Source of the DNA: a virus
Length of the DNA stretch: 49,084 nucleotides
Virus record (IMG/VR): IMGVR_UViG_3300008448_000141
Coordinates: 1 to 49,084 of that record
Reading direction: 5' to 3' (one strand)
Each line of letters begins with the position of its first letter. The stretch's first letter is position 1. A model generated the notes under the pieces. The model was not told the origin of the DNA. It ran no database searches and saw only the letters and a program-made list of their open reading frames with translations. This document shows, one piece after another, positions 8,883 to 28,800 of this stretch. The position numbers were made by a program, and so were the translations under genes.

Positions 8883-11800
8883 TTAAGCACCCATCAACAA
8901 AAATGAACTTAATATATTTATAGGTGATGACCAAGCAACTAATTGTATAGTAGCATATGCAGTTGCTGGTGATGTTAATACTACCGTTAAACCGTCAGAA
9001 GCAGTATAGTCGCTATCTTTAATTAATTTAACACCGTTGTAGTAAACATCTAAAGCATTTACATCATAACCTTGGCTAGTTGTAAATGTAGTCTGATTTG
9101 CAGTTGCAATAAATGTGTCTGTTACCTTTATACCACCTGCACTAATTATACCAGTATCTAATCTTACAGAAGATCCTGTAATGTCTAACCAGTATGCATT
9201 TGTACCATCCGATGTATAACGATACATAACATCTGTGGTTGTTTTATACCATATATCACCAACAACAGGATTCAATGGTGCAGTAGCAGAACTGGTTGAT
9301 CTGATGCCTCCACCAACAACATTACCCGTAACTACTAGTGTATTATTAGATGTATAATAATTTAGATTGGCATTGTTGGCAATATATCCAGCAGAATTAA
9401 CCGTCAGTACATTATTAGGTGCAAAACCACCAAGAGATACTACACCACCTCCACCACCAGTATTTGCTTGATTAAATGCAGCTTGAGTATAAGCTAATAC
9501 ATCATAACCATTAATGAAAACAGAATTACTAATTAAATTAGCTTTTAATGTTGAAATTCTAAGTGATGCATGATTTGGATCTAATAGATTAGTACCTTGA
9601 ATTTCTGGCGTATAATTATCTAACAAATACCAAGTATTTGTAGAAACATCTTTAATGAGACCGGTATGTTTAAGAGTATCACTTTCTATATAATGTGCAA
9701 CAAAACCAATATCGAGTGCATTACCTGTGTTATTGTTTGCAAGAAGAATAATAGGATCATTGATAACAACATTATTTGAAGTATAAGTTGTTGTGTTTCC
9801 AGAAACAAATAAATTTCCTGTAACTGTTAAGTCACCTGAGATTGTACCACCAGAAGAATTTAATTTTGTATTGGCAGTATTGAATGAAGCTTGTGCAAGA
9901 ACATTTGCAGAATTGGCCTGAGCATATGCACCAAAGGAATAATTATTAATTGCATCTAATCTGGTATTCTGAGTGTTATCGACACCTTGAATTATGATTG
10001 TGTTGGACGATGCTGAGTTTGCTGTATTTCTGGCATATTGATCAACAGAAGAACCTACATTAATATTATTTGCAGCATTAAAAGCAGCTTGCGCTAATGA
10101 ATTTGCAGAGTTGGCTTTGTCATAAGCATTTTGAGCAAGCGTTGCAGTTGGAGACCAAACAGATAAAGCATCGGATGCAACCGCATATGCCAAATTTGCC
10201 TGAGCATATGAACTATTAGCGTAAGAATTTATGGCTATAATTCTGGTATTTTGCCAAGTATCTACACCTTGAGTATAAATTGTGTTTGCACTTGCTGAGT
10301 TGGCTGTTAATCTAGCAACGTTGTCAATTGCATATTCACCACCAGTATTTGCTTTATTAAATGCGGCTTGTGCTAGTACATTAGCAGAGTTTGCTTTATC
10401 AAATGATGCCTGAATATAGGTATTTTGTGTTATATTGACTTCTGCTAATTTTGATGCCAATATATCAGCGGCTTCTGCCATGTTGTAAGCAGAATTGGCT
10501 TTATCAAATATTGTTTTACCATTAAATGTGATGCTCTTATATGGTGTATCAGACGGATTGGTTGTTATTACAATACCATTTGCACCATTGATACGGATAA
10601 TATCATCACCAACCGCATTAAGATCACCTTGACCAACAACATTCCATGTTGAGAATGTACTGCCTAAAGAAATCTTTACATTACCTTCTCCCATATCATA
10701 GACATGGAAACCAGTAAATGTATCAAATGCAATTGTAGAAACATTAGAAACAATATTACTATAAACATTTGAACTGTCTATAGAAGCAACTTTGAGCATT
10801 GGACTGGCATTATTTGCCTTATCAAATGCAGCTTGTATTCTGGTGTTTTGTGTGGTGTCTACACCTTGTATTACGGCAATATCAGCTGCATTTGTATTTG
10901 CTTTATTGAAAGCAGATTGTGCCAAATTGTTTGCAGCATTGGCCTGTGTATAAGCACCGCCTGCATATGAATCTACTGCTGTAATCCTAGTATTCTGTGT
11001 CGCATCTACACCTTGAGTGTAAACGGTATTTGAAGAAGCAGAGTTGGCTGTATCTCTAGAGTACTGATCTATTGCATTATTGGCTTTATTAAATGCAGAC
11101 TGTGCTAAATTATTCGCTGCAATTGCTTGAGTGTATGCACCATCAGCATATGAATCTACTGCTGCAATTCTGGTATTTTGCCATGTATCAACACCTTGAG
11201 TATAGATGGTGTTAGATGTTAGAGAATTTAATTTATCGGTTAAATCGATACCATTTACAATGACAGATGTTGCAATTAAATTGCCTTTAAAATAATCTGC
11301 TTGAATATTTGCACGACTAAAACTACTGTCGTTCAAATCAATTAAAGAATTAGAAGTTACACCTGGTGTGTAACCATCAAAAAATAAAAATTCTTTTAAA
11401 TTTGGATCTCTAAATAATCCTGCTTTACGAACTGTACCATCATTATATGTTCCAACAAAACCAAAATCTATAGCATCACTTAATGTATTGTTGTTTGCAA
11501 GAAGTAATAGTGATGCATCGATGTCTATACTTGCTGTATTTAAAGTTACTTCGGTACCAAGAACTGTTAAATTTCCTGTTACAGTCAAATTTTCCGTTAT
11601 TGAAACATCACCGTTAATGGTGCCACCATTGTTAACAAAATTATTGCCTACATTCGCCGCAGCAAAAGCAGCATTTAATCTTGTTGTTGTGGAAGATATT
11701 ATATTGTTTTGATATGCATCTACGCCTTGTGTATAAACAGTATTAGCCGATGCTGTATTTGCAACAGAAAATACGGTTTGTATTACATTATTTTGATGTA

Positions 11801-12695
11801 GATCTACACCCCGATTGTAAACGGTATTAGAAGAAATTTGATTCAGAAAATCTAATATATTTACGCCAGCAACAGTTGCCGTTTCAGAAATTAAATTTGC
11901 TTTAATGTAACCAGCAATTAAATTGGCTTTTATAAAAGACGCATCATTAATATTAATTAATGTATTTGCTTGAACTGTTTGTGTGTAATCTCTGAATAGA
12001 AAATATTCATCTAGATTTGGATCTCTAAACAAACCAGTATAAGAATTTGCACCATTATTATAGAGTCCAACAAATCCAATATCAAAAGTATCACCTAAAA
12101 CATTGTTGTTTGCTAAAAATATTATTGGATTATCAATCTGTAAACTGTTGGTATTTGTATATGTGGTGTTACCTTCAATTATGAAATCATCACCTACAGT
12201 TAAAGTACCAGTTATAGTAACATTTCCTGTAACTGTGCCGCCAGAACTTACAAATGTATTACCAACATTGGCTGCAGCAAATGCCGCATTGATTCTTGTA
12301 TTTTGTGCCGCATCAACACCTTGTGTATAAACAGTATTGGCTGCAATTGTATTTGCAATGTCTCTTACAATCTGATCTATATCATCAGAAAGAGCATTGA
12401 TAGTTATTGTTTTTGATGATGAGTTTGTTGAGATGCTTACATTATTACCTGCAACAATACTTAAAGTATCCGTTGGTGAAGTTGCAAGTATTAATGTTGA
12501 GTTTGAATTGATTGTGGCAAAAGAGTCTGGTTGTATGCCAACCAGATCCAGATCAAATGATGATATTTGATTATTAGCTCTCTTAAAAAATAATTTACCG
12601 TCAGCATAGTTAAGAGCTAATTCTCCAAACTGTAGACTTGACGGTATATTTCCTGTTACGCCAGAGCTTTTTAAACGGATTTTTGTATTTGCCAT
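8883..12695 (-). CDS. Long tail fibre, 1270 aa, modular
   Basis: The N terminus (MANTKIRLKSSGVTGNIPSSL, then FGELALNYADGKLFF) is a short anchor of the kind found at the start of Mtd-like and other phage fibres. It is shared with the fibres at 13237-14901 and 14934-17942. Three copies of an about 125-residue module (core xLLLANNN....DxGFVG, then a GLFRDPN-like strand) lie near nt 12240-11845, 11625-11215 and 9855-9485. Between them are Ala/Asn-rich AFNKAN and TQGVD..QNTRI repeats, probably a trimeric coiled or helical shaft. A block at about nt 9465-9165 is nearly identical to one in the fibre at 1-1585. The C terminus carries a DVYYNGVKL beta module and ends LLMGA. An exact TATAAATA lies 36 nt upstream of the start. 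Confidence 0.85.
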   Translation of the reverse strand: MANTKIRLKSSGVTGNIPSSLQFGELALNYADGKLFFKRANNQISSFDLDLVGIQPDSFATINSNSTLILATSPTDTLSIVAGNNVSISTNSSSKTITINALSDDIDQIVRDIANTIAANTVYTQGVDAAQNTRINAAFAAANVGNTFVSSGGTVTGNVTITGTLTVGDDFIIEGNTTYTNTNSLQIDNPIIFLANNNVLGDTFDIGFVGLYNNGANSYTGLFRDPNLDEYFLFRDYTQTVQANTLININDASFIKANLIAGYIKANLISETATVAGVNILDFLNQISSNTVYNRGVDLHQNNVIQTVFSVANTASANTVYTQGVDAYQNNIISSTTTRLNAAFAAANVGNNFVNNGGTINGDVSITENLTVTGNLTVLGTEVTLNTASIDIDASLLLLANNNTLSDAIDFGFVGTYNDGTVRKAGLFRDPNLKEFLFFDGYTPGVTSNSLIDLNDSSFSRANIQADYFKGNLIATSVIVNGIDLTDKLNSLTSNTIYTQGVDTWQNTRIAAVDSYADGAYTQAIAANNLAQSAFNKANNAIDQYSRDTANSASSNTVYTQGVDATQNTRITAVDSYAGGAYTQANAANNLAQSAFNKANTNAADIAVIQGVDTTQNTRIQAAFDKANNASPMLKVASIDSSNVYSNIVSNVSTIAFDTFTGFHVYDMGEGNVKISLGSTFSTWNVVGQGDLNAVGDDIIRINGANGIVITTNPSDTPYKSITFNGKTIFDKANSAYNMAEAADILASKLAEVNITQNTYIQASFDKANSANVLAQAAFNKANTGGEYAIDNVARLTANSASANTIYTQGVDTWQNTRIIAINSYANSSYAQANLAYAVASDALSVWSPTATLAQNAYDKANSANSLAQAAFNAANNINVGSSVDQYARNTANSASSNTIIIQGVDNTQNTRLDAINNYSFGAYAQANSANVLAQASFNTANTKLNSSGGTISGDLTVTGNLFVSGNTTTYTSNNVVINDPIILLANNNTGNALDIGFVAHYIESDTLKHTGLIKDVSTNTWYLLDNYTPEIQGTNLLDPNHASLRISTLKANLISNSVFINGYDVLAYTQAAFNQANTGGGGGVVSLGGFAPNNVLTVNSAGYIANNANLNYYTSNNTLVVTGNVVGGGIRSTSSATAPLNPVVGDIWYKTTTDVMYRYTSDGTNAYWLDITGSSVRLDTGIISAGGIKVTDTFIATANQTTFTTSQGYDVNALDVYYNGVKLIKDSDYTASDGLTVVLTSPATAYATIQLVAWSSPINILSSFLLMGA
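8915..8922 (-). promoter_or_regulatory. Late promoter TATAAATA
   Basis: The minus strand reads exactly TATAAATA, the T4 late-promoter consensus, 43 nt before the ATG at 8872 and inside the 3' end of the 1270-aa fibre gene. It would drive the 109-aa gene and the two adhesin genes after it. Confidence 0.5.
9165..9465 (-). repeat. Paralogous fibre block shared with 720-1010
   Basis: The encoded segments are nearly identical: SLGGFAPNNVLTVNSAGYIA versus SLGGFAANNVLTVNSAGYIS, then LVVTGNVVGGGIRST in both, then NPV(V/I)GDIWY and a YRYT(S/N)DG strand. This is a duplicated module in two fibre genes; the domains after it differ. Confidence 0.75.
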
Positions 12696-12698
12696 TTA

Positions 12699-13205
12699 CT
12701 AAAAACTTCCACCATCTTTCGTATTTTCTTTATTTATAGATGATTCTTCAACAACTTCTTTTGCTTTTGGAGAATCAACTTTACGTCTTTGAGCAGGAGT
12801 TAATTGTAAATATTCAATTTTTTTATTTAATTTGGCAATAACTTCATTCTTTTCTTCAATGGTCTTTTGTGCTTTAGATAATTCAGACCTAAAAGTTTTA
12901 ATATGTTCTACTTGATGTTTTGTTTTATCATATTCAGTTTCTTTATCTTTGATAGCTTCAAGTTTTTTTGTTAACTCATTAACAGCATCTTTTAAAGATT
13001 TTATTTCTTGAGTTTCAAAATTGTTTTTATTTGTTTTTAGTGTTTGAAGTTCTTCATCAAAGTTTTTTAACTGAAATTCATATGTTTCAATTACTTCTTT
13101 GCTAATTCTTTCGTTAGCTTGTAATGATATATTTCTCAACAAAGCATCATTTAAAGTACTAGCCAAAATATCAATGTAATAATTAATATACTTATCATTT
13201 TCCAT
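12699..13205 (-). CDS. Coiled-coil protein of unknown function (168 aa)
   Basis: Residues about 30-130 are a near-continuous charged heptad-rich helix (LKDAVNELTKKLEAIKDKE, LSKAQKTIEEKNEVIAKLNK), so a long coiled coil is expected. The N terminus (MENDKYINYYIDILASTLND) is hydrophobic-aromatic, and the C-terminal 25 residues are polar and probably disordered. A good Shine-Dalgarno (AGGAG) precedes ATG 13205. It sits between two long fibre genes and ends 3 nt before the 1270-aa fibre starts. A fibre assembly or trimerisation helper is possible by position only; no family is recognised. Confidence 0.65.
   Translation of the reverse strand: MENDKYINYYIDILASTLNDALLRNISLQANERISKEVIETYEFQLKNFDEELQTLKTNKNNFETQEIKSLKDAVNELTKKLEAIKDKETEYDKTKHQVEHIKTFRSELSKAQKTIEEKNEVIAKLNKKIEYLQLTPAQRRKVDSPKAKEVVEESSINKENTKDGGSF
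12731..12738 (-). promoter_or_regulatory. Late promoter TATAAATA
   Basis: An exact TATAAATA on the minus strand, 36 nt before the ATG of the 1270-aa fibre and inside the 3' end of the coiled-coil gene. Sequence and spacing match T4-type late promoters. Confidence 0.5.
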
Positions 13206-13236
13206 AACAAACTCCTATTCATTAAACAATTATATA

Positions 13237-14901
13237 TTAGAATGTTCCACCCTCTAATGTTGTGGACCAAACAGGAGTTCCAGAAGAATTTACGGTTAAT
13301 ATTTGACTTGACCAATCTTGATCAGCGCCTTCAGCTCCTGCAGCTGCTGTAACTTGTAATGCTCCTGTTCCATTTCCATATATGATACCTTTTGTAGTTG
13401 CAGATGCAAATCCTGTACCACCTTGTGGAACTGTTAAACCTGATATTGCTGAACCTGTTGCAGCAGTTAATCTACCATAAGCATCAACAGTTACAGAAGT
13501 TATTGTATTGTTTGTGGCAAGAGAACCTGTTAGTGTATAAGTTGTGTTTGCAAGAGAAGAAAATCCTTCTGCGCCAGCAATTAATATACCACCTGTAGTA
13601 TAAGAAGAAGAACCGGTACCACCACGAGCATAAGGAAGAACACCAGAAATTAATTGAGAGGTGTCAATTGCAATATTTTCTACAGTTGCGGATGTAGCTC
13701 TACCATAATCATCAACTGTTAATGCCGATATTGTTCTGTTATTTCCTAAAGTTGGTCCTGTTAGTGTGAATAAAGAATTGGCTAAAGACTTTAATGCATT
13801 AGTTCCATCACCAATAACAATTTGTCCAGCTGAAAATGTATTTGTTCCTGTACCACCAGACCCTACAGGTAGTGCTGTGCTTAAAGCTAAAGAACCAGAA
13901 GAAATTGTTGTTGCAATTACATTACCTTTGAAGTAATTGGCATTGACATTTGCCTTTGCAAAAGTAGCGTGTGAAGTGTCAATTGTATTATTTGAATTTA
14001 TTTCTGGATCATAGTCAGCAAATACATAATATTCTTGGTTTGTGGCACTTCTAAAGAAACCAGTATGTGAATTTACTCCTATGCCACCATGGTGAGCAAT
14101 AAAGCCAATGTCTACTGTGTCAGTAGTATAATTATTGCCAGCTAAAAATATTAATGAATCTTCAAGTCTTAATGTACTTGTTTCAATTACTGTTGAGTTA
14201 CCCAATACGGTTAAGTTACCAGTAACAACTAAATCTTTATCTGCGGCAATTCTTAAACTAGTATTGATTATCTGTTCGCCACCTGAAGTGTTTGCACGAA
14301 CAACGGTATTATCAACACTTAATGTTACATTATCAAGACCAACATTACTTGTAATACCTTCACCACCAATTACAGTAAGTGTATCGCCGCCAGAAACTTC
14401 ACTTGTTCCTGAGTCACCATTCAAAGTAAAGGATGTTGAAATTGGATTTGTTGTAACACTTGTAATACGACCATTTGCAGCAACAGTAATTGTTGGAATC
14501 GATGTGCCAGAACCAAATGTTCCTGCGGTTGTTACATTTGAAAGATTTGCAGAAAGTGCTACGGCTCCTGTACCATCAAATGATACAGCTGATGCAATAA
14601 CTTCACCACCTATGGAGAAGTTTCTGCCTGTTTCTAATGCAGTTGCGGTGTTTGAATTACCATATAATCTACCATAAAATGCACCATTTGCATCTCTTTT
14701 AACTAATGTATTAAATGCATTTGCAGCTGTTGCCGTTCCAATGTCTGCTATAGAAGTACCACCAATCGCTATTGGACCACCACCGGTAGTACCAATAAAC
14801 AAGGTATTTGAAGCATAGGAATACGCCAGTTCACCAGGTGATAAAGATGTGGGTGTACTAGTGACTAGTGATCGTTTTATCTGAATTCTTGTATTGGCCA
14901 T
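13237..14901 (-). CDS. Tail fibre, 554 aa
   Basis: The N-terminal anchor (MANTRIQIKRSLVTS, then SPGELAYSYASNTLFIG) is shared with the two neighbouring long fibres. Residues about 220-340 hold one copy of the module with core SLIFLAGNN....DIGFIAHH. The rest consists of repeats typical of phage fibre shafts: GGTG turns (VGSGGTGTN, ARGGTGSS, PQGGTGFA) alternating with TVDDYGRATSAT and TVDAYGRLTAAT strands. The protein ends TTLEGGTF, much like the IDAGTF end of the 1002-aa fibre. A possible AATAAATA promoter lies upstream. It probably forms a beta-rich trimeric receptor-binding or connector fibre. Confidence 0.85.
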   Translation of the reverse strand: MANTRIQIKRSLVTSTPTSLSPGELAYSYASNTLFIGTTGGGPIAIGGTSIADIGTATAANAFNTLVKRDANGAFYGRLYGNSNTATALETGRNFSIGGEVIASAVSFDGTGAVALSANLSNVTTAGTFGSGTSIPTITVAANGRITSVTTNPISTSFTLNGDSGTSEVSGGDTLTVIGGEGITSNVGLDNVTLSVDNTVVRANTSGGEQIINTSLRIAADKDLVVTGNLTVLGNSTVIETSTLRLEDSLIFLAGNNYTTDTVDIGFIAHHGGIGVNSHTGFFRSATNQEYYVFADYDPEINSNNTIDTSHATFAKANVNANYFKGNVIATTISSGSLALSTALPVGSGGTGTNTFSAGQIVIGDGTNALKSLANSLFTLTGPTLGNNRTISALTVDDYGRATSATVENIAIDTSQLISGVLPYARGGTGSSSYTTGGILIAGAEGFSSLANTTYTLTGSLATNNTITSVTVDAYGRLTAATGSAISGLTVPQGGTGFASATTKGIIYGNGTGALQVTAAAGAEGADQDWSSQILTVNSSGTPVWSTTLEGGTF

Positions 14902-14927
14902 TTTCTATCCTTGCATAGATTCTATGG

Positions 14928-14935
14928 TATTTATT
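14928..14935 (-). promoter_or_regulatory. Late-promoter-like AATAAATA
   Basis: AATAAATA on the minus strand, 27 nt before ATG 14901, the same sequence and spacing as the site before the 41-aa gene at 1719. One mismatch to the T4 late consensus. Confidence 0.35.
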
Positions 14936-17900
14936 AAAAAGTCCCTGCATCAATTATGCCACCATAATCTGTGGAATATAATGATCCTGCGAAAATTGCA
15001 CCAGCCACACCAGCTCCACCAGCGAGTATTAAATCTCCAGAATTTGTATTTACAGATGGAAAACCACCAGCTATTCTCAATGTTCCGGTCATTGTATCAC
15101 CTGGTCTTTGAACAGCATTTGTAGTCTGACTTAATGCTGTTGTTGCATCAATTAAGGCTTGTGCAGCATAACCGTATGCCACATTTGCACTATCAAAAGC
15201 TGCGGCCGCATAGTTAAAGGATGAGTTTGCAGTATTTCTTGCATACTGATCAACATTGTTTGGTAAAGTGGCATCAATTGCTTGTTGAGCTAAGGCTAAT
15301 GCTTGTGAGATTCTATTATTCTGTGTACCATCAACATTAGATTGATATTGTATCTGACTATTGATATCATTAATGGTGCCTGCAAAAGACTCTACTGTAG
15401 AGATTGCAAGATTTGCTTTATTGAAAGCGGAATTAATTGCTGATTGTTGAGAATTGGCTTTATCAAAAGCTAATTGTGCCGTTACTTGTACAGTATTGGC
15501 TTTATTAAACGCAGCCTGTGCATGAGAAAATGCAGAATTAGTTCTGCTGAATACCAAATCAGTATAAGTTATTGCAGAGTTTGCTCTATCATAAGCACCA
15601 TTAGCTTTTGATCTTGCGTAACTATCTGTAGAAGATATGGTAACATTAGCGGAATTAGCTTTGTCAAATGCTGCTTGAGCTAATATTGTTGCATCATTAG
15701 ATTTTGAAAAACTTGCTTGAGAATAATTAGTTAGATAAGCAATGTCTGTTCGTGCAACAGTATCTATTTGATAAACACTATTTGATTTTGCATATGCAGC
15801 TTGTGCAATATTAAGTGCCGAATTTGCTGTTATACTTGTTGCATTTACTCTTGATCGAGCCCAAGGGTCAACATTATAAACAGTAACATCAACGTTTGCC
15901 AATGCACCAGAAGAAACAACAATATTATTTGCATCAACCCATCTTAATGTTCCAAAACCATCTGTCGATAGAATTTGGCCCATTTGACCAAAAGAACCAT
16001 CAGCATATATTCCACCATCAATATAAAGATTATACCAATGATGTGATATGTCACCTAAATTTTGGCCTAGTACCTTTGGAGATATATCACCATCAAGTTC
16101 AATACTTCCATCAATGTTGAGCATTCCTGAACCAACATTAATATTTGGAACAAATAATGTATTTGTTGAAGAATCAAATCTTAAATTTGCAGAACTACCA
16201 AAAATACCATTATTGTTATATTGAACCCAAGTATTATTTCCTGTAATTGTTGTTACGCCATTTGCTTTATTGAAAGCGGCTTGCGCTAATGAATTTGCAG
16301 AGTTGGCTTTATTAAATGCTGATTGTGCTGAATCTGTGGCTGCATTTGCTTTATTGAAAGCAGCTGGATTATATGTGTAATTGTTTGCATAATCATATGC
16401 GGCTTGTGCTATACCTCTTATATGAAGAATTTCATCATCTTGTATAATATTTTGTGCTTGAGCTTCAAATGCTTCTGTAAGTGCAGTATTAGCTTGTCCA
16501 AAAGCTAATTGTGAATATGTTATTGTAGAGTTTGCTCTTGCGTATGCCGACTGTGAATAATTATCAATTGCTGATATTCTGGTATTCTGTGTTGTATTAA
16601 CGCCAGCTTGATATGATATAGAAGAATTGGCTGTGTTTAATGCACCTTGTAAATACTGACCTTTTAAAGAAGCATCTATAGCGGTATTGTCTGCACCAAA
16701 AGCAAGAAGGAACGCATCGTTGGCACGGTCAAATACTGTAGATACTCTAGATGATACTGCATTAATATTATTGTTTTGTGTGGTATTAGTAGCAAACAAT
16801 ATAGAAATATTTGCATTTGCAGCATTGATCGCACCTTGCAAGTAAGAAATATTTGCAGATACATTTGTTGCATTGGCTGCATTAAATGCCAGTTGAGATA
16901 TTGTTTGTGCAGTATTGGCTGCTGCATAGGCCGCATCTAATCTGTCTGATAGACCAGTTACACGGGTGTTTTGTGAAATATTTATTAATGAAACAACATC
17001 AATATTTGCATTAGCCGTATTCAATGCACCTTGTAAATAGTTTGCCAAATTGGCTGCACTATTGGCTTGATTGAAAGATGCTTGAGAAATTGAAGATGTG
17101 GAATTTGCTTTGGTGAAAGCTGCATCTAATCTGGTACTAGTTTGGCTTATCTGAGTGTTCTGCCAGTCATTTAGATTGTTTAATCTTTCTATGTTGACAT
17201 TCGCACGGTCTAAACCACCTTGTAAGTACAATGTATTTGCCGATGCGGTATTAGCCTTATCAAATGCAGATGCAACAGATGGCTGAAGTGCAATAGTATT
17301 GGCTGAAGCAGAGTATGCAATCGTATTTGCAGTATTTGCTTGTGTATAAGCATTGGCTGCGGCTAGTTCTACATGACCTAGTCTGGTGTTCTGTGTTGCA
17401 TCGATGCCATACAGAACAGTTATGTCTGATACTGCACCAGACACCAGAGGTTGTAATGTTACTGTGTTGGCTGATGCAGAATATGCAACTGTGTTAGCTG
17501 CATTTGCAATAGATAGTGCGGCTTGTGCGGCTACATTTGCAGATATTCCATTGGCTGCAGCCGAAGTTGCAAGAATGTTGGCTGCATTGGCCAAATCGTA
17601 TGCAGAATTTGCTTTGTTGCTGGCAAAAGTAATGCTATTATTTTGAGTTGTTTGTATGCCAAAAAGATAACCTATATTGGCTTCAACTGCATCAACTTCT
17701 ACTTTTAATGTTACTGTGTTAACTGAAGCTAGAGTTGCAGTATTTTGTGCATTATTGGCTGCATTGAATACTATCTGTAAATCTCTGGATATATCAGAAT
17801 CAATAATCTCAACAACAGAATTGACACCATTTACAGATTTACCAATGTATAGTGTATTGGATACAAAAGAATAAGCTAACTGGCCATCTTCTAGAAAAGC

Positions 17901-18199: not shown

Positions 18200-18538
18200 C
18201 TACCTTGTGACAGCTGGAGAAACCTCAAAGATTCCCTCCAAGATCCTAGTTGTTGTATTATTTGCACTTTCTCTAATGATAGTGTCATAAACATAACGAC
18301 CAGGAGCAATATTTGCTGTCACAGTTGCAGGTAGTGTAAGTGTAATGGTACCTTCAGACACATTTATAGATGTCGAAAAGGTTGCTGTTGCGTTTGCAGA
18401 GTAATATGACTTACGAATCTGGCTATTTGCTGTATAACCAGTCAAGTCATAATTTTGATTGTAGGCGTCATCGACCGTTATTGTTATTGTAAAAGTCGAG
18501 CCTTGTTCGGCGAATAGGTTGGAGTATGCAGCTGGCAT
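18200..18538 (-). CDS. Baseplate/fibre adaptor with BppU-like Ig domain (112 aa)
   Basis: The whole protein fits one Ig-like beta-sandwich: FAEQGSTFTITITV, YDLTGYTANSQIRKSYYS, GTITLTLPATVTANI and PGRYVYDTIIRES....RILEGIFEV. The LTGYTA..QIRKS pattern and the closing GRYVYD strand resemble the N-terminal domain of phage baseplate upper proteins (BppU type), which docks fibres on baseplates. It heads the fibre genes down to 14934 and follows the unusual gap at 18539-18665. An ACTAAATA element lies 30 nt upstream. Confidence 0.7.
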   Translation of the reverse strand: MPAAYSNLFAEQGSTFTITITVDDAYNQNYDLTGYTANSQIRKSYYSANATATFSTSINVSEGTITLTLPATVTANIAPGRYVYDTIIRESANNTTTRILEGIFEVSPAVTR

Positions 18539-18665: not shown

Positions 18666-19337
18666 TTAGGTTTCTTGAGTTTCTATCCAGGAATGAAGAT
18701 TTGCCAAATGTTCTTCATTCAAACATAATAACTGTGGAAAAACATTTAACCACAAGTAATCGACACCTGGTACGGTTGCTTTAATTGACAAAGCAGCTGG
18801 TCCTTCTCTTAGTAGATCAAAAGTACAAGTAGCACCATTTACCACATATGTTGATTTTTGAGATGCACCTAGACCATTGATAGAAATGGTATCAGAATTG
18901 TCACCTGTTGTGTTGTTTTTAATTCTTATATTTTGAATTTCTTCACAAATATTATGGTTTTCATCATAAACACCAACTTTCAAGGTAATGCGATTGTTTT
19001 CACCATATATCTTCTTCAGGTTTGTGTCATAATATGTGTGGTCAAGCAATTCTACCTGTAATTGTTTTAAATGCACAGTTCTATTGTCATTATCTAAAAA
19101 AGCCATCATTTCTTTATTGTTAATACTCATACTTAACATAGTATATTCTTCTTTTGTTAAGTTCTGAAGGTGGTATGAAGGCCATCCAGCACCATCGTTC
19201 AGTCCTTCAACAGGAACAATGAAACCAACAAAACCAGTAATATGTCTATTTTCTGGATTAACATATACAGTATAATTTTTTCTTGGATCATACTGTTGTT
19301 CAACAGCAATTTCCGTAACTTGTTCAAATTGTGACAT
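18666..19337 (-). CDS. Unassigned protein with Ig-like half (223 aa)
   Basis: I do not recognise a family. Residues 1-100 include YTVYVNPENRHITGFVGFIV and a W-P-Y-rich turn. Residues about 115-195 (RITLKVGVYDENHNI, STYVVNGATCTFDL, AALSIKA) look like an Ig or invasin-type beta-sandwich, which would suit a surface-exposed virion protein. It begins 3 nt after the U32-like enzyme gene and was probably translated with it, so it may be that enzyme's substrate or partner. It is followed by the structured gap at 18539-18665. Confidence 0.6.
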   Translation of the reverse strand: MSQFEQVTEIAVEQQYDPRKNYTVYVNPENRHITGFVGFIVPVEGLNDGAGWPSYHLQNLTKEEYTMLSMSINNKEMMAFLDNDNRTVHLKQLQVELLDHTYYDTNLKKIYGENNRITLKVGVYDENHNICEEIQNIRIKNNTTGDNSDTISINGLGASQKSTYVVNGATCTFDLLREGPAALSIKATVPGVDYLWLNVFPQLLCLNEEHLANLHSWIETQET

Positions 19338-19340
19338 TTT

Positions 19341-20351
19341 TTACCTTTTTAACCTTGGAAACAATTTAATTAATACATCATCACATAAAGTACATTCTGT
19401 ACCACAAACATTTTTACAATTTTCTGTAACTTTATTAAATCCTACATCAGTCAATTCATCCGCAGAAGTGTTCATCAATATATTTGGCGGTTTAGTTGAA
19501 AATAGGTCTTTTAATTGAGCACTACTATCTTCATACATATAAGCTTTGGTCAATTTAAGCCATTTTTCAATTGGAACACCACGACCAGCAAGTTTATATA
19601 TATCAACTAAATCATCAAACTTCTGTAAATTATTTGGTAGAGTAAAAGCAGTTTTTAAGTATTGCTGAGGCTTTTCCTCAAAGTAATCCGTACAACCTAA
19701 CTTTTGGTGTACAATATTGATGACTTTCATATTTGATTTCTCATTGGTTTGAGCAATCATCATGTCATCTATATTCTTCCACAAACAATCCACAATACAA
19801 CCTTCATTTATCAACATGGTAATTGGTATATTCAGACTATTACAATATTCTCGGATCTTTTTCAACTCATCTAAATTACGGTTAAGTGAACGATCTACAA
19901 TAATACTGCGAATAGACAAAACTTCAACCAAAAACATCACATCTTTAAGTGTTCTTGGTATGTTATTAACTGAATTCTTTACTTCTAATGGTTTACCATC
20001 ATTTCTCACATTCCTGAGAGCGCTCATAAAAAGATGATCTCTCATTACATAAGTGTTGTTCATGCAAACTATGTCAGGATCAACTTGTTTTATGTGAGCA
20101 AGAACTTTATCTAATTCTTCATAAAACTCATTCGAATAATAATTACCATTAATTAAATATTGTAACTTGATACCATATTTTTCTCTAAGTTCATAAAGCT
20201 CTGAATAATTTTCAGGCTTAAGTGATAAAGCTCTGGCTGAGCCAAATGCATTATCAGAGAAATATATGTCATTAATTCTTTTTGTTGGTAATTCTTCAAT
20301 AACATCAATTATGCCAGGTGTGTATGGCAACGAAAACATCCTATTTTTCAT
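19341..20351 (-). CDS. Peptidase-U32-like TIM-barrel protein with Cys cluster
   Basis: This 336-aa protein differs from its fibre neighbours: it has an ordinary enzyme-like composition and no repeats. The alternating pattern (INDIYFSD, GIKLQYLINGNYY, DIVCMNN, SIRSIIVDRSL, IPITMLINEGCIVDC) resembles the barrel of U32-family proteins (UbiU/UbiV, RlhA, TrhP, YhbU type). The central E183-G-C185-x3-C189 matches the NEGC...C signature, with C220 a possible further ligand. The later LKTAFTLPNNLQKFDDLVD..K.AGR stretch also fits. The C terminus has C312-x3-C316-x3-C320-x2-C323. Known U32 members bind 4Fe-4S and several perform oxygen-independent hydroxylation; whether this one does is inference. No radical-SAM CxxxCxxC is seen near the N terminus. 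It may modify a virion protein, a host surface component or RNA. Confidence 0.6.
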   Translation of the reverse strand: MKNRMFSLPYTPGIIDVIEELPTKRINDIYFSDNAFGSARALSLKPENYSELYELREKYGIKLQYLINGNYYSNEFYEELDKVLAHIKQVDPDIVCMNNTYVMRDHLFMSALRNVRNDGKPLEVKNSVNNIPRTLKDVMFLVEVLSIRSIIVDRSLNRNLDELKKIREYCNSLNIPITMLINEGCIVDCLWKNIDDMMIAQTNEKSNMKVINIVHQKLGCTDYFEEKPQQYLKTAFTLPNNLQKFDDLVDIYKLAGRGVPIEKWLKLTKAYMYEDSSAQLKDLFSTKPPNILMNTSADELTDVGFNKVTENCKNVCGTECTLCDDVLIKLFPRLKR

Positions 20352-20368
20352 AATGTACTTTCAATCAA

Positions 20369-22300
20369 TTATGGATTATAACCTAAATTCAAATATAAGT
20401 TTCTTTTCTTGGTTGCAAGTCCAAACCAACGGGCACCAATATTTGCATTGTGGTATGTAGCAACTGCATACACATTACATTCAATATTGTAGTGACCCCA
20501 ATAAGGACTTGTAAAATCTGTTGTAACTGGTGTCATATTAACATAAAATGCCATAGTTGCGCCTGTACCTTTTGTAGAACTTCCTGGTGAAGAACCGCTC
20601 AACCATGGATAATCCCAAAAGTTAATTTCGTATATTTTAAACAATGCAGAGAAAGCTTGGAAATCGTAATTGCCTTTCCAATCTGGTCTTGTATTTGCTT
20701 CATTTTCAACTCTACCAGCAATATATCGTGTATTTGATAGACCGGCTGCATTGGCAACATCTATACGCATTGTAATTATAGCTCTATAACCACCGCCACC
20801 CGTTGTATTATATGTAGAATTAATGACGCTATAATTTTGGCCAATTGTGTTTGCTTGACCGGTGATGCTGGCATTAGTTTGATTGTAAATATATGATGGT
20901 GCGCCTGCTTGTGTAACACTTCCATCTAATGCATTTGTAGCAGTCAGCTGAATATCAAGAGAACCTAATACATTGATAAACAAATCAGAAGGTAAAGAAA
21001 CAAGATCAGATAAACGAACAGCAGAATTTGCACCTAATGGTTCTGGAATATTAGATAATGCAGTTATAATTGCACTATTAACATAAGTAACAACTGTTGT
21101 TGGTGGTGTGTTACCAGTAATCAATTGACTGGTTACATTTGTAATATTTACACCATTTGAAAAAAGATTTCCTGATGCGTAAATATTTCCTGCATTAATA
21201 TTAGCTGATCTAAAAGAAGCATGATTAATGTCAATATTATTATTTGAATCAACTTCTGGTTCATAATTATAAAATGCATAAAAATCTGTAGTTCCAGATT
21301 TTCTAAAAAAACCAGCATGACGATTTGTTGCGCCATCATTATAGTTACTTACAAATCCAATATCATGTGTGTCTGAATAATAATTATTTGCACCAAGATA
21401 CATCAATGTGTCATTGGCTGTAATTGATGAAGTTAGAATTTCTGTTGTGGTGCCTTCAACAATTAAATTTCCTGTTACATTGAGATCACCAATTTGTAAT
21501 GCGGCATTGTCAATTTTTATAGAACCGTCAACTAATTTGATAGCTGCATTTCCAATATAAACAGATCCGGGACCAACATAAACAGAATGAAAAGGACTAT
21601 TTGCAGAACCTAAATCATAAGTATTGGCAGTTGTTGGTAAAACATCACCCGAAACATAACCAGCATAATTGAAAACAGAACTTTGTGATATCCATGTATT
21701 ACCATTAACGGCAGAATACATCAGAATATTGTTTGCAGCACCAGGTGTTACTTCTTTTAATGGATTTAAACCATTACCAACTAACACCGAATCAGGTGTT
21801 GCATTAATAACTTGTCGTGCTAATAATGTGTTATATGCTGTTACTATTCTTACAAAATCATTTTCTCTGGCCGGTATTTGAAGAATTATATTTTCACCAT
21901 CAGAAGCTTGATAATCTAGATTGCCTAATTGAACACCGTTAACATAAACATCAACATAACCTAAATCATACCTTTGAACTGGAAAAAGTGTTTGTCCAGA
22001 AGTGGCATAATATTCAGCTACTTGTCTAAATGTTTTTGGTGCTGCGATGCCTGAAGCTGGAATAGCAAGGTATCTTATTTGAATATTACTTGTGCCAGCT
22101 GCAGGTGGTGTGGCAAATTTTATATAAGTTCCATCGAAATAATAATCTTCTGGACTGATAACAGCTCCATCTATAACAACGATAGCTGAAACAGGAGAAC
22201 CAGGTTCAATTGTTGTCACAAATGAATCTAATACGCCGTTTCCACTAAAAGAATCGTAGTAATATTCTGCTATTAATGGTTTTGCGCCGATGTAACTCAA
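20369..22300 (-). CDS. Tail fibre, 643 aa, MSYIG anchor
   Basis: The N terminus MSYIGAKPLI matches the MSYIGNS start of the 470-aa fibre. Two beta modules follow at about residues 19-80 (VVIDGAVISPEDYYFDGTYI) and 95-155 (YVDVYVNGVQLGNLDYQASD). Residues about 270-390 hold one copy of the shuffled module (TLMYLGANN....DIGFVSNY....GFFRKS). The last 200 residues form a distinct beta domain with aromatic-rich strands (YEINFWDYPWLSG; GARWFGLATKKRNLYLNLGY), probably the receptor-binding tip. A likely AATAAATA promoter lies 24 nt upstream. The U32-like enzyme gene follows 17 nt downstream. Confidence 0.85.
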   Translation of the reverse strand: MSYIGAKPLIAEYYYDSFSGNGVLDSFVTTIEPGSPVSAIVVIDGAVISPEDYYFDGTYIKFATPPAAGTSNIQIRYLAIPASGIAAPKTFRQVAEYYATSGQTLFPVQRYDLGYVDVYVNGVQLGNLDYQASDGENIILQIPARENDFVRIVTAYNTLLARQVINATPDSVLVGNGLNPLKEVTPGAANNILMYSAVNGNTWISQSSVFNYAGYVSGDVLPTTANTYDLGSANSPFHSVYVGPGSVYIGNAAIKLVDGSIKIDNAALQIGDLNVTGNLIVEGTTTEILTSSITANDTLMYLGANNYYSDTHDIGFVSNYNDGATNRHAGFFRKSGTTDFYAFYNYEPEVDSNNNIDINHASFRSANINAGNIYASGNLFSNGVNITNVTSQLITGNTPPTTVVTYVNSAIITALSNIPEPLGANSAVRLSDLVSLPSDLFINVLGSLDIQLTATNALDGSVTQAGAPSYIYNQTNASITGQANTIGQNYSVINSTYNTTGGGGYRAIITMRIDVANAAGLSNTRYIAGRVENEANTRPDWKGNYDFQAFSALFKIYEINFWDYPWLSGSSPGSSTKGTGATMAFYVNMTPVTTDFTSPYWGHYNIECNVYAVATYHNANIGARWFGLATKKRNLYLNLGYNP

Positions 22301-22331: not shown

Positions 22332-22551
22332 GTGTTTTTGGAGGAAAGGGTTTTACTACCGCTTCAACCGAATCATAGTAAGATGTGCCTGGATGTGTTG
22401 AACTTAAACATTCAATCCAGAAAAGAGGTTCTCCAACAGGAAATTCTTGTCCATCTTCTACAACTTGAACAACTCTTTTTCCAATTACTGGTGGATTTTC
22501 TTGTACTCTAGGATCTTTAACAACTTCATTAGGTGATATTAAAGCTTTCAT
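22327..22551 (-). CDS. Conserved-type small protein of unknown role (74 aa)
   Basis: The protein starts MKALISPNEVVKDPRVQENP and contains VGKRVVQVVEDGQEFPVGEP then LFWIECLSS. Small proteins with this I-SP-E....G-RV..V....FPVG.PLFW pattern occur in tail-fibre clusters of T4-like aquatic phages, where they remain uncharacterised. Its ATG overlaps the stop of the 295-aa fibre gene (TAATG), so production is coupled to that fibre. A fibre accessory role is a guess from position. Confidence 0.65.
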   Translation of the reverse strand: MKALISPNEVVKDPRVQENPPVIGKRVVQVVEDGQEFPVGEPLFWIECLSSTHPGTSYYDSVEAVVKPFPPKTQ

Positions 22552-23438
22552 TAGTTATACTCCGCCCAAGATACTACTGATGTGTTTCCAGCATTGTTAG
22601 TGACTATAGAATATGTATTTGATGCTGGGACAAGAAATGATATTGATTGTCTATCTCCAGAATTTCTTATGGTATTACTTGCAATAGTTACGGCACCAAC
22701 GTTAGCAGTAACAGTTATTGCGGAAGCACTTGTTGTTGATGCCCAAACAAAACTAACAATCATTGGTTTGTTTGTAGAATTTGTATACGATGTGCCGAGT
22801 GCTCTAACACCAGTTCTATCAGTTAATGTTTGTTGATAACCAAATAATCCTTGATTGTACCAATCAAAATAATCATATGTTCTAGAAATCCATGCTGTTC
22901 CATTTGAAACATATGTGCTGTTTGCTGTGCCTGGATGTAAAAACAATCCGTAAGATGGATAACTGATCCAATCATTGCCAGTATCTACAAGGATATTATT
23001 AGCAGCTGCAGGTCTTGGAATAATACCAATGCCACGGGTTGTGGCATTTGCCGAATACCATTTTGTACCATCAGAAACAATCACATTATTTGGTGATCCT
23101 GGAGCAATGGTATCTACCGGATTGAGGCCTCTGCCAATTAAAATACAATTGTTTGCTAACTCTGAACCGCCAGTCCCTCCAGAAGTGACAGGAAGTGTGT
23201 TGGATGTCAAACTGCCTGTTGTCAGAGCGTAGATCGCACCGCCGACATTGAAAGACGCCAGGCCTGTTCCTCCAATATTTGTTGGTAATGTTCCAACTTG
23301 TATAATATTGTTGCCTGTGGTAAAGTGCAAAGCACCATTTGCATGATAGGCATCTCTACCAGTACCACCACGCCAGATATTTAAAATACCAAAATTTGTA
23401 TTACTTGCTAAATTGGCTAGATTTGCTGCTTTTGTCAT
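22551..23438 (-). CDS. Short tail fibre, 295 aa
   Basis: The N terminus (MTKAANLANLASN) is a fibre start related to the SRARDLADL type. Residues 20-110 hold three GGTG turns (RGGTGRDAYH, IGGTGLASF, SGGTGGSEL), typical of trimeric beta shafts. Residues 130-180 repeat PG(S/T)(P/A)NNxxVSxGTxW-like units. The last 100 residues form a beta-sandwich tip (VSFVWASTTSASAITVTANV ... VSWAEYN) of the kind that ends many phage fibres. The stretch near nt 23100-23290 is more GC-rich than its surroundings, hinting at exchange. The stop overlaps the ATG of the 74-aa gene. Confidence 0.8.
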   Translation of the reverse strand: MTKAANLANLASNTNFGILNIWRGGTGRDAYHANGALHFTTGNNIIQVGTLPTNIGGTGLASFNVGGAIYALTTGSLTSNTLPVTSGGTGGSELANNCILIGRGLNPVDTIAPGSPNNVIVSDGTKWYSANATTRGIGIIPRPAAANNILVDTGNDWISYPSYGLFLHPGTANSTYVSNGTAWISRTYDYFDWYNQGLFGYQQTLTDRTGVRALGTSYTNSTNKPMIVSFVWASTTSASAITVTANVGAVTIASNTIRNSGDRQSISFLVPASNTYSIVTNNAGNTSVVSWAEYN

Positions 23439-23448
23439 TTATTTGCCT

Positions 23449-24861
23449 TTAGTATTCTATCAGAACCATTCCATCAGGTATAGATGCTGCATCTGGCCGA
23501 TGATCACCTTGACCATAAGAGAACAATGAACCAGCAGGTTTGAATGATTGTCCTGTTATATTGAAATCTCCTGTGGCACCCAATCCATCTCCGCCATCTT
23601 GAGCAACACCCCAATAATCATAATAACCACCAGAACCACCAGTTGCAGTACAGTATGCACCGAAAGATGTTGTGCCTCCGGTATTTGCTGTTCCAGAGTA
23701 TGCATTGATTGATGCACCTTTTGTGCCAATCGTAACAACAACATTTTCACCACCATTTAAACCTGTAATATATTTAACAGCTATTCCACCGTTACCTCCA
23801 CGGGAACCATATAATAGATTAGGTGAAACTGCAAAACCTCCACCACCACCAACGCAAGTAACTTTTAAGTTTCTGATACCTTGTGGTACGGTATATGTTG
23901 TGCTTGATGTTATTTTTGTTCCTCGGCCACCACCAGCAAGTTGTGTTGTTGCAATTCCGTAATCTAGCACATTGCCTGATACCCAATTTGTTCCATTTGA
24001 AACAAGAATATTGTTTGCTGTGCCTGGTGCAACAGTAGAATAAGGACTTGCACCATTTGTGATTACAACAGAATTTGCAGTTGGGCTACTTAATCCTGTT
24101 CCACCTGCAACAGAAGGTAGTGTGCCGGTTGTTAATGTTGAACCATTAATTGCATATAGAGCTGTGTTTGCAACGAAAGATGTTAAACCTGTTCCACCAT
24201 TTGCAGTTCTTAGTGTACCACCTAGTGTAACATTTCCTATTGTTGCAACCAAAGGTGTTAAACCTGTATTGCCACCACTAAAAGATGTTTGCAAAAGATA
24301 TCTATATGTTGAAGCACCCGTTAAATATGTATCTCCGTTTGCGGTACCTGTTCCAAGGACAGTTGGACTAACAATGTTGTGATCAATGCTCTCTGCATTA
24401 ATGCCTGTTAATGTATATGCATTACCATAATAATATCCATCGATGTAGATATTCGAATTTGCGTGTAATACATTTACATTTGCCCAATTACCATAAACGG
24501 TAAAATTCCTTAGAATATTAACATCACCTTGAGAATTCCATTCTGGTGCACCAATAGCTAGAGATCTATAAGAAACTGTGCCTTGAGCAGGAGCAATTAA
24601 AGATGTTTGTCTAGAAAGATAACGAACAACAATATTATTTGAACCATTTGTTGGTGCAGTATAAAATGTTAGTTCATTTGTTCCTCTATTAATATAGTAC
24701 GTTGCTGGATTACCAACAAGACCATTAACAACCACTTGAACATCATTTTCAGATTCAACATATCGTGTGAGTTGAAATCCTGTTCTTACACCATTACCAG
24801 AAAAAAATTCTATTCCAGGTGTAATCCAGTTTTCTATATTAGAATTGCCAATGTAACTCAT
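23449..24861 (-). CDS. Tail fibre with Gly-rich tip, 470 aa
   Basis: The N-terminal MSYIGNSNI anchor and the following beta module (VQVVVNGLVGNPATYY) match the 643-aa fibre. Residues about 160-290 are GGTG-type shaft repeats (TANGGTGLTSF, VAGGTGLSSP). From about residue 320, SSTTYTVPQGIRNLKVTCVG opens a Gly-rich domain with GGGGG, GSRGGNGG and GGSGG runs. This is the same tip class as in the adhesin at 1749-4604. Gly-rich tips of this kind are known in phage adhesins such as gp38-type proteins, where loops between Gly-rich helices contact the receptor; whether the fold is the same here is inference. Confidence 0.82.
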   Translation of the reverse strand: MSYIGNSNIENWITPGIEFFSGNGVRTGFQLTRYVESENDVQVVVNGLVGNPATYYINRGTNELTFYTAPTNGSNNIVVRYLSRQTSLIAPAQGTVSYRSLAIGAPEWNSQGDVNILRNFTVYGNWANVNVLHANSNIYIDGYYYGNAYTLTGINAESIDHNIVSPTVLGTGTANGDTYLTGASTYRYLLQTSFSGGNTGLTPLVATIGNVTLGGTLRTANGGTGLTSFVANTALYAINGSTLTTGTLPSVAGGTGLSSPTANSVVITNGASPYSTVAPGTANNILVSNGTNWVSGNVLDYGIATTQLAGGGRGTKITSSTTYTVPQGIRNLKVTCVGGGGGFAVSPNLLYGSRGGNGGIAVKYITGLNGGENVVVTIGTKGASINAYSGTANTGGTTSFGAYCTATGGSGGYYDYWGVAQDGGDGLGATGDFNITGQSFKPAGSLFSYGQGDHRPDAASIPDGMVLIEY

Positions 24862-25821: not shown

Positions 25822-28800
25822 TTATAGTCCTATTCCTGAAGGTAGAGCAAGTGCTCGGATGTCTGATAAAAATGGTACATTTGTTCTGTCTGATGTTGCA
25901 AGGACAATCTTGATTGCAAACTGACTGAATTCTGTATATACTTGACCATTTGTACTTGTATAAGAAATATTATTATTTGCACCAAAACCCCACATACCAG
26001 GTCCAACCTCATATTCAATCATATTTGTTCTATCTTTTGAATATGAAGTTGTCAGATTTACTGGTGCCATGAGCTGCCACTCTTGTGCTTCAAATTGCTC
26101 TGTGTCATTACGGTTTTGTATTTTGTAATACACATAAACTTCTGAACCTAATGGTTTGTAAGCAGTATAGTAAACTCTTAAATCGCCAGAATCATTTTCT
26201 GGTGTGAGAATGACTTTCTTGGTGAAATATTTTGCAAATGCAGGACCACCGTCTGGTGAAGTTTCACCAACAACAGTTACTATCGCATTTGAACCATTTC
26301 CTGATGCATCAACTAAAGAAACTGTAGGTGTTTTTGCATATCCTGAACCAGGGTATGTTACAAATACAGTTTCAATGGCACCTGTTGATGTATTTGTTGT
26401 AAAGTCGAGCACAGCACGGTCTATACCAAAATCTGGTGCGCTTACTGTAATCGATGTTGCATTTGCGTTATAATTTGCACCACCATTAACAATATTAATT
26501 AACGAATCACTTTCAATACCAAGATTGTTAACATATTGTTGAATATTGAACAGAGATAGTCCGTCATCTGCCAACAATGGGCTTAAATTTGGATCTGAAG
26601 AAGAAAGTGTTGCAAACAATTGGAAAGAATTGCTTGAAGATTTTTTCAGAATACGTTCACCAAGGCCATCTGAGAAATAGATGTTATCTTGTAATGGTGT
26701 TCCCATTTTACCTGGTGTAACAGATGTTGGTGCAGTTACACTCAAATCACTCGACAATGTTGTACTGTAAGTATAATTGATATTTGTAAATGTTGGTACA
26801 AAATCAGTTGTACTTAAATTAAAAGCGTGCATCGGACTTGTTGGTGCACCATTCTGATTAACAGCATTTGAAATTAATTCTTTGTCAATTGAAGAAAGAA
26901 CATCACTTGAACCTAATTTGTTTGCTGGTAAACCTTCTGGTGTAACAAACTGCAATCTTGGTGTTTTTGTTGTATCAAATACACATTGCTCAATTACAAA
27001 CATCAAGTCTTTAGATTGATCAGCAGTCCATGTCATGGAGTTCTGTGATTCAAATAGAGCACCAATATATGGTGAACCACCAATTTTGGTTGGTTGACTT
27101 GGTGCTGCATCTGTTGGCAAAGCTTTTGCAGTAGAAGAAATAGCAACTTGATTTTGTTGTGCATAGTACACATAGTAATCAGATGTACCAGCAGAAATCA
27201 ATATTGCATAGAGAACACCAGACTGCACATAAACTGGAGCTGGGAATTTAAACTCAGTATATGATGTTGGATCCAAATAATGTGGATTGTTTGAAGTTAC
27301 AACATCGTCTGCATCTAATGTAACTCTAGAATAATCTAGAGTATTTCCGTTTGGTTGACCATTTAATGTATTGACAATACCAACTGTGATTGGAAGTATT
27401 GGTCTTACGTTACCAGGGAATGGCGAAAAGAACAGTTTAACAGAGCTTAAGAAAACACCGTTTGGATAGTTTTCTTTAGATATGATAAATGTTTGTGCAA
27501 TTGGATCATTAGGTGATTGTGATTCAACAACATTGTATGTCTGCAAACTTAGTGGTGTAAATTTCTTAGAAGAAGAATCTACAGATGGAGAGAAGTTTGA
27601 AGAATTTGTTGTTTGTATTGCACCTGCAACAAATGTTGATTCAGCATATGTTGTTGCTGTTTCTGGTGCACCTGCACCACTTCTGTTGTCTATGCGGAAT
27701 ACACGGGAGCCAATATGAAATACGGAACCTGGTATATTAAAGATTGCAATAAACTGACCTTTTTCATCCGTTGTCAAAGAAGCAGGACGATCACCTTCAC
27801 GAATAACATCTGCATAACTTGCAGCCTGACCTTTGACAGAATACTTTGCAGTAATATTACCAACAGAAGCACTTCTACCAAAAGATATCTTTAGTGCTTT
27901 ATTAACTGTTACTGTGCGGGTTTCGCCATCATATTCTGTAACTGTTGCATAATCAGTATCAACAGCACTTAAAATAAGTGTTTTGTCTTTAATTGATTGT
28001 GCCGCATCGTAAATTGGTTGCCAAGTTGCCATTTGTGTACGCCACAATGCTACCCAGCCTGCGTCACCATCACCGCCTATCGTTGGTCTTGGTGGAACAT
28101 AAATTGCACCAAACTTATATTCATACAAATAAGTAGATGTCACAGTAATTGTTGCACCAGTATAATATGCATCAATATTACTTGCAGCTTTGTCTAACTG
28201 AAACTTTGTAACGCCGATGAAATATGACCCACCATCAGGCATCTTGTATTCTGTACCAATCGCATCAAAATTCAAACCATTTGGTGTTTGTGTATTCCAA
28301 AACATTGTTCCATCAGGTCCGGTTATTGTCATTGCAAAACCTGCAACGGATTCTGCATTGTTAATAGACCAAGTTAAAGTTTTTGTTCCTACTGTTGCGG
28401 TATAGTTATAAGTATATTCTGTATTTCTTGCTGCAACGTTTATGATTTGTGTGCCATTGATACTTACTGTTCCTGTACCTGTTGCGTATACTCTGACAGT
28501 ATAAACACCTGCTGTTTCTATCTCAAGTGGATATGTTGGAGCATATGGGTTTGCATTACTTTGATTACCCCAAACAGAATATTGATTAAACCATGTTGGT
28601 TTTCCGTTTAGATTGGCTGTTTTAAATATGTTTTGAGCAACAGCAGAAACGGATGAAGTAAATGTTCCACCAACACCAGCTACTGTTCCTGAATTATGTG
28701 TACTTGTGAAACTTCCATTCTCAAATACAATTGTTCCTCTTGCAGAAGAACTAATGTAATTTCCAGCAATATCAAAAGTTGCGTTGATTAGAATGTCAGA

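Follow-up and report, generated by a model that had tools for sequence, protein, structure and literature searches.

A divergent U32 protein of phage fibre cassettes occurs together with a candidate tip domain and an Ig-like partner

Characterised proteins of the U32 family are hydroxylation factors that act on RNA or on ubiquinone precursors, according to two papers (PMC6599085, PMC6747719). UbiU and UbiV are 4Fe-4S-binding, oxygen-independent hydroxylases with one cluster each, held by the patterns CX6CX16CX38C and CXnCX12CX3C, respectively (PMC6747719). Prephenate is needed by TrhP for ho5U34 in tRNA and by RlhA for ho5C2501 in rRNA; E162, C170 and C177 are essential residues of TrhP, and whether prephenate serves as the oxygen donor was left open by the authors (PMC6599085). 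Since these proteins are hydroxylation factors, the “peptidase” function suggested by the name in many phage records was dropped.

The RB69ORF050c-type proteins (phrog_5757), which are found in RB69-like phages, Serratia phage 92A1, Proteus phages, Klebsiella phage Marfa and Shewanella phage Thanatos, belong to the same U32 subgroup as P0001, the protein reported here. Their genes are situated in a DNA-modification region, downstream of the DNA polymerase gene and near either a dCMP hydroxymethylase gene or a thymidylate-synthase-like gene plus sugar genes. Prephenate is made by chorismate mutase, and hosts make prephenate. A CM_2 chorismate mutase gene was found within about 300 nt of the U32 gene in five of six Straboviridae records, the record without one being Klebsiella Marfa. 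It also occurs near U32 in KLB31, Thanatos, 92A1 and PM2 (as the second gene behind U32 in the latter two), and in AlbertHofmann the next gene after U32 is not CM_2. RB69-like and related phages have a small chorismate mutase gene immediately after U32 or separated from it by one gene, near a thymidylate-synthase-like gene; places with chorismate mutase and U32 are L125:4983-6394, G704-G708, L126:7001-8391, L004:7974-9618 and L006:5968-7543. One bacterial reading frame (L114:955-2442, minus strand) fuses U32 (E 4.2e-9) with CM_2 (E 2.8e-17), so that CM_2 is fused (L114) or close by (G543) in 2/14 bacterial genomes, three more having it on another contig. The occurrence of CM_2 beside or fused to these relatives ties the subgroup to prephenate and, hence, to hydroxylation. 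Arabinosyl-hydroxy-cytosine is reportedly the subject of Lee et al. 2025 and Mahler et al. 2025. The modified base of Mosigvirus derives from 5-hydroxy-deoxycytidine, as stated in PMC13390438. Given this origin and the prephenate-dependent C5-hydroxylation of pyrimidines by TrhP and RlhA, U32 and chorismate mutase may take part in base modification of the Mosigvirus type; neither PMC6024577 nor PMC12838424 uses the words chorismate or U32 in its main text.

The window, i.e. the whole stretch of 49,084 nucleotides that was analysed, stems from a T4-like phage, as it contains genes with PHROGs matches to baseplate, tail tube, head closure and DNA-end-protector families. One baseplate-region protein (34219-36978) is matched at low identity by 70 phage records, among them phages of Synechococcus, Stenotrophomonas, Sinorhizobium, Methylophilales, Pelagibacter and Caulobacter. 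Numbers of promoters (28 vs 23.0, sd 4.2) and terminators (3 vs 2.1, sd 1.5) were near the shuffled expectation. In the gene at 8883-12695 about 330 bases (11767-12098) are absent from the near-identical contig of L003, which is a length change in a fibre-like gene.

The earlier note on this DNA had described a U32-like reading frame, without giving its strand, between a fibre gene and an Ig-like protein. The frame is present at the coordinates given there, on the minus strand (Table 1), and both neighbours were recovered; the fibre label, however, follows from context, the upstream gene having no match in either Pfam or PHROGs. It is called a fibre gene because of its make-up and because neighbouring genes (22551-23438, 23449-24861 and 18200-18538) match tail-fibre families of PHROGs. 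We refer to its C-terminus as the tip by presumed analogy with T4-like fibres. In the window 17 nt separate the upstream gene from the U32 gene, and 3 nt lie between the U32 stop and the partner start.

Table 1. Features of the U32 locus in the window
Feature	Position	Strand	Description
Fibre-type U32 gene (P0001)	19341-20351	-	ORF, 336 aa, ATG start
Partner gene	18666-19337	-	223 aa; predicted all-beta, Ig-like, C-terminal helix; downstream homologue in 26/27 loci
Upstream fibre-like gene	20369-22300	-	643 aa from TTG, start uncertain; fibre by context only
C-terminal “tip” domain	20372-20821	-	last 150 aa of the upstream gene; adjoins U32 in 27/27 loci; proposed substrate
Far-flank marker, fibre-cassette gene	18200-18538	-	phrog_1084 / phrog_3304; homologues also in relatives lacking U32
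Core motif C185-x3-C189-x5-D195	19767-19799	-	invariant in 21/21 rows; proposed ligands together with C220
C220 codon (LGC)	19692-19694	-	invariant in the family and fibre-type alignments
C312-x3-C316-x3-C320-x2-C323	19383-19418	-	invariant in 14 and 21 rows; proposed second Fe-S site, metal binding inferred

Sequence profiles indicate that P0001 is a divergent member of the U32 superfamily by descent, though below Pfam's own cut-off. A profile of 13 relatives that was aligned and built without P0001 recovered it at E 9.1e-23, the next of the 143 window ORFs being at 0.24. A similar family profile, whose source alignment had included P0001, scored it at 75.8 bits against at most 6.8 bits for 2000 shuffles of itself. 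The family profile was built with ten of 15 bacterial loci; L112 was omitted (ORF untrimmed), and L120, L121, L123 and L124 failed the motif filter. P0001 matches phrog_5757 (“peptidase”) at E 2.3e-5, as do all 21 aligned fibre-type rows (best 2.8e-7), PHROGs being used without a curated cut-off. Other PHROGs matches of these rows are phrog_1458 (E 1.9e-9) in one of 21, phrog_36869 in two and phrog_12001 in one. In profile comparisons with E. coli UbiU, UbiV, TrhP and RlhA, P0001 alone gave E 3.9e-4 (probability 35%) and its alignment with phage relatives E 4e-8 (95%); comparing the fibre-type rows with TrhP, RlhA and UbiU gave E 8.3e-6 (83.5%). Pfam PF01136 (Peptidase_U32, cut-off 22.4 bits) returned no P0001 match at E up to 1, and among three orthologues L266 reached 15.7 of 22.4 bits while L253 and L249 had no score. 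The same family had no match in the window record vs 10/14 control genomes. Its cut-off is passed by the relatives L004, L007, L111, L114, L118 and L122; scores of 44.3 and 43.6 bits were obtained for the two members of the tblastn set that were scanned. Neither NCBIfam nor a PDB sequence search gave a significant match to P0001. A tblastn search with P0001 (E up to 1) matched 216 phage records, mainly RB69-like and other Straboviridae, all below 60% identity and at 22-24% among the matches listed.

Both cysteine signatures named in the earlier note were found in the protein, the first as N182-E183-G184-C185-x3-C189 and the second as the four C-terminal cysteines of Table 1. P0001 has nine cysteines, seven of which (C185, C189, C220, C312, C316, C320 and C323) occur in each of the 14 family rows, P0001 included; the same seven, together with D195 and D196, are invariant in 21 fibre-type rows. 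Chance cysteines are ruled out by this invariance and by the profile E of 9.1e-23. The four-Cys core of the characterised U32 Fe-S hydroxylases is incomplete in the fibre type, which has three Cys and Asp195 in the 21 rows. At the sixth position after C189 (by eye) the three RB69-type and four bacterial rows have Cys, six bacterial rows have His, and the fibre type has Asp. Cys, His and Asp can all serve as cluster ligands, on which ground we propose a core cluster held by Cys3-Asp, or by Cys3 with an open site, and a putative second cluster at the C-terminus. At the position of TrhP Glu162 lies T178, as judged by eye in a very distant alignment; some bacterial relatives have Gln there. The AlphaFold2 model of P0001 is poor (pLDDT 49), too poor for cluster geometry. 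Its top Foldseek match is the U32 protein Mk0906 (PDB 5d88, E 3.1e-4), which in VIA-align gave Z 9.8 and an rmsd of 3.8 over 177 residues; other TIM barrels equal or beat this score (Z up to 11.1), so the match is not specific. The U32 kinship claimed in the earlier note thus stood up: similarity to U32 was found along several profile lines and by Foldseek on the poor model.

One of 33 related-phage records reached through a baseplate gene, whole records that form part of 82 loci (L157-L238), contains a fibre-type U32, an orthologue of 71% identity. The two-sequence alignment of this and the window protein led to 29 IMG/VR loci, three on contigs near-identical to the window and 26 on further phage contigs (47-70% identity). 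A single-contig or assembly artefact is ruled out by both sets. The 27 loci examined are these 26 and one of the three near-identical contigs (L011). In 27/27 an ORF immediately precedes U32, with a 17-nt overlap at the U32 start in 24 and a gap of 16-17 nt in three, and its C-terminal domain is homologous throughout. A partner of 212-229 aa follows directly 3' of U32 in 26/27, the remaining contig ending inside U32; in L253 the U32 stop overlaps the partner start. From the sequence layout, the overlaps (upstream gene with U32, U32 with partner in L253) would fit coupled translation. Within the 150 aa of the tip domain G113, H129, W137 and N146 are invariant in 17 rows, and as its last residues are encoded across the U32 start in most loci, their conservation may partly reflect that overlap. 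A scan by the tip domain alone returned 23 loci, with U32 adjacent in 22 and the partner in 21 (the exceptions, L270 and L275, are contig-cut); as the pattern was drawn from U32-linked tips and 22/23 contigs were already in the orthologue set, this is a consistency test. The fibre-type U32 alignment of 21 rows omits six of the 27 loci, i.e. the cut L267 and L246-L248 and L257-L258, which score like L245 and L256, and the window protein stands for L011. The partner alignment (20 rows) additionally lacks L263.

Other genes were noted in these phages. A ThyX-type thymidylate synthase gene (L245:11046-11726, minus strand; PF02511, E 1.9e-44) lies on the opposite strand just past the fibre cassette. 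In the fibre region of L259, a phage with a fibre-type U32, a radical SAM protein (14457-15548; PF04055, E 1e-12, weak SPASM) represents a second Fe-S enzyme near fibres. The relative G711 has a glycosyltransferase 2 plus HtrL_YibB protein behind the fibres, and collagen-like Gly-X-Y runs occur in fibre-like genes of both G711 and L243 (places L242:16913-18508 and L243:12420-15119).

For the reverse comparison, 12 of the 32 U32-negative records were read in the region that follows their baseplate gene. Both flank markers, homologues of the large baseplate-side gene (25822-32826) and of phrog_1084, are present in 10/12; G713 and G730 stop before the far flank. In 10/10 related records with both flanks U32, tip domain and partner were all missing by profile search: the tip gave no match at E up to 1, and the best values for the others were E 0.72 and 0.11. 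These ten were chosen by size among records reached through a single baseplate gene, and very distant tips could escape the profiles. A partial match to the upstream protein was also seen in nine of the ten. L157, a close relative, shares the far flank (phrog_1084 homologue), and its 66% identity to the upstream protein is confined to residues 1-387; its slot holds no tip domain, U32 or partner. The L157 slot (9699-13582) contains glycine-rich fibre-like ORFs along with cupin-like and methyltransferase-like ORFs, assigned by eye and with no Pfam match. Throughout loci L157-L238 the tip domain was absent, which carries little weight, since the far-flank marker occurs only in L157 and an upstream-protein match only in L157 and L158. 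In the loci that could be seen, tip, U32 and partner occur as a set or not at all.

The description of the partner as Ig-like in the earlier note agrees with its prediction: AlphaFold2 gives a confident all-beta model (pLDDT 86) with a C-terminal helix, and the best solved match by Foldseek is domains 4-5 of the S-layer protein SbsC (E 3.6e-4, TM 0.29 of the query), which we take to be Ig-like. The viral structure library had no partner match below 1e-3, and no Pfam family was found for the window partner (best E 0.098). In PHROGs the 20 partner members share no common family, four families being matched by one member each. On the model, the partner is probably an Ig-like protein with no closer relation found in these searches.

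Simple counting of dN/dS in four orthologue pairs of other contigs gave 0.019-0.065 for U32 and 0.042-0.145 for the partner, which points to strong purifying selection on the fibre-type U32. In a set of 50,697 annotated phage records, the sequences matched by U32 of the window and of L253 are all below 60% identity (at most 24.4% among the matches listed), in organisms that resemble those matched by the RB69-type protein; no match was found there for the L253 tip domain, the L253 partner or the window partner. In plasmids, neither P0001 nor the RB69-type protein had a relative. Viral scans with earlier queries gave only the near-identical contigs and enterobacterial phages, a first scan of genome contigs gave no relative, and another early profile gave 0/9 genomes. 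The phrog_5757 profile was matched in 0/398 genomes of the phylum of G004, 17/294 of the phylum of G006 and 1/14 control genomes. A wide family profile matched 184/398 genomes of the phylum of G004; as the best ones listed mainly match positions 1-195, these were read as other U32 families. Literature searches of partial coverage found nothing that links peptidase U32 with a phage tail fibre or with viral auxiliary metabolism, and no work on phage U32 was among the matches listed for U32 with phage, hydroxyl or UbiU. Our data establish the fibre-type U32 as a real, conserved and new branch of U32 that is tied to a tip domain and a partner.

The best reading of this association, to which we give an even chance, is a dedicated module for fibre-tip maturation in which U32 and the partner covalently mature the tip. 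Three parts would make up the module, namely the fibre-type U32, the Ig-like partner and a fibre-like protein that ends in this specific tip domain. U32 would be translated from a start just behind or inside the end of the upstream gene, and the partner directly after it. The U32 protein would have a TIM-barrel-like fold and two Fe-S clusters, one at C185/C189/C220 with D195 or an open site and one at C312/C316/C320/C323. Together with the partner it would act on the newly made tip inside the infected cell, before assembly. Given the linkage, the tip domain, made just before U32, would be the most economical target. The likeliest chemistry would be a hydroxylation that needs no oxygen and uses prephenate, or a host metabolite like it, as the donor, as in better-studied U32 proteins; by this analogy we infer hydroxylation as a further step. 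Points against this reading are the lack of CM_2 in the fibre-type records (all of them fragments, and prephenate is available from hosts), the incomplete four-Cys core, T178 in place of Glu162 by eye, the missing Pfam match of P0001 and the missing fibre-family match of the upstream gene. The earlier note had left the choice between a fibre-modifying enzyme and an auxiliary gene carried as cargo. Fibre modification is favoured, because U32 is linked to one tip domain and one partner and is jointly absent with them in 10/10 records. The fit to the characterised hydroxylase families did not hold, given three core Cys, an Asp in place of Cys or His and, by eye, T178 at the Glu162 position.

An unlikely but serious alternative is a U32 hydroxylase that modifies nucleotides, DNA or RNA, or another auxiliary metabolic gene, merely located in an exchange-prone fibre cassette; its targets would be DNA precursors, tRNA or rRNA, as for TrhP, RlhA or the cluster of RB69-like phages. 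TrhP and RlhA serve the C5-hydroxylation of RNA pyrimidines (PMC6599085), the RB69-type relatives lie among DNA-modification genes, and fibre slots exchange cargo, L157 having other genes there. Against this stands the linkage to one tip domain and one partner, which are present and absent along with U32. The fibre clade is moreover separate from the RB69 type, and no chorismate mutase gene lies beside the fibre-type U32 (0/26 fibre-type records and 0/4 for the window and its three near-identical contigs, all of them fragments). A thymidylate synthase gene of PF00303 is likewise absent from the window and these three contigs, again fragments.

We consider it just as improbable that the role is non-enzymatic, U32 and the partner being adhesin, collar or chaperone subunits of the tip whose metal or Fe-S sites stabilise it. 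In T-even phages the position directly behind a fibre gene is that of gene 38 (adhesin or chaperone), and U32 directly follows the fibre-like gene. The partner is Ig-like, a common fold in virion proteins, and U32 departs from the catalytic residue of TrhP (by eye). The linkage with tip and partner, which favours maturation, could also mean a structural role. Between the window and L243, however, U32 is 70% identical, while the tip and the partner each reach 39% (and the phrog_1084 gene 63%), which is unlike an exposed adhesin, and U32 keeps the invariant residues of its family. Should the role be structural after all, the recruitment of an Fe-S barrel into a fibre would also be unexpected. 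It is very improbable that the enzyme alters a host surface component such as a receptor, blocking superinfection or aiding adsorption and travelling with the matching fibre, for although this would also explain the linkage with one tip type, nothing beyond linkage speaks for it, and a gene that overlaps the one upstream is likely to be expressed alongside the late structural genes.

Returning to tip maturation, our results suggest that these uncultivated T4-like phages chemically finish a fibre tip that contacts the host. The wider claim, a new class of receptor-binding tips covalently finished by an oxygen-independent Fe-S U32 protein and an Ig-like partner in an inseparable cassette, with U32 acting on protein, is put forward tentatively, and we would sooner expect it to fail than to hold. 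If true, it would extend the U32 family to protein modification and would bring phage chemistry beyond the plain genetic code to the point of host contact. Three adjacent genes offer a clean experimental handle.

Compared with the known systems, the fibre type stands apart from the RB69 type in clade and neighbourhood. The tree, which has long branches, recovers the 21 fibre-type sequences as a single group with support 100/98 and the three RB69-type sequences as another (100/100); the RB69-type proteins share about 21-26% identity with P0001, and the fibre type has fibre-cassette neighbours with no CM_2 found among them. Both types carry the C-terminal four-Cys motif, but the RB69 type has, by eye, the full four-Cys core, unlike the fibre type. 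TrhP (YegQ), RlhA (YdcP), UbiU and UbiV, whose substrates are RNA or ubiquinone precursors, possess a related U32 domain with a different cluster layout, and Glu162 of TrhP is, by eye, not kept in the fibre type. The bacterial relatives (L110-L119 and L122) come from the phylum of the genome that holds L083 (Planctomycetota bacterium), and all four that were scanned with PF01136 pass (L111, L114, L118 and L122). In ten aligned rows they keep the C-x3-C core, C220 and the four C-terminal cysteines, just as the fibre type does.
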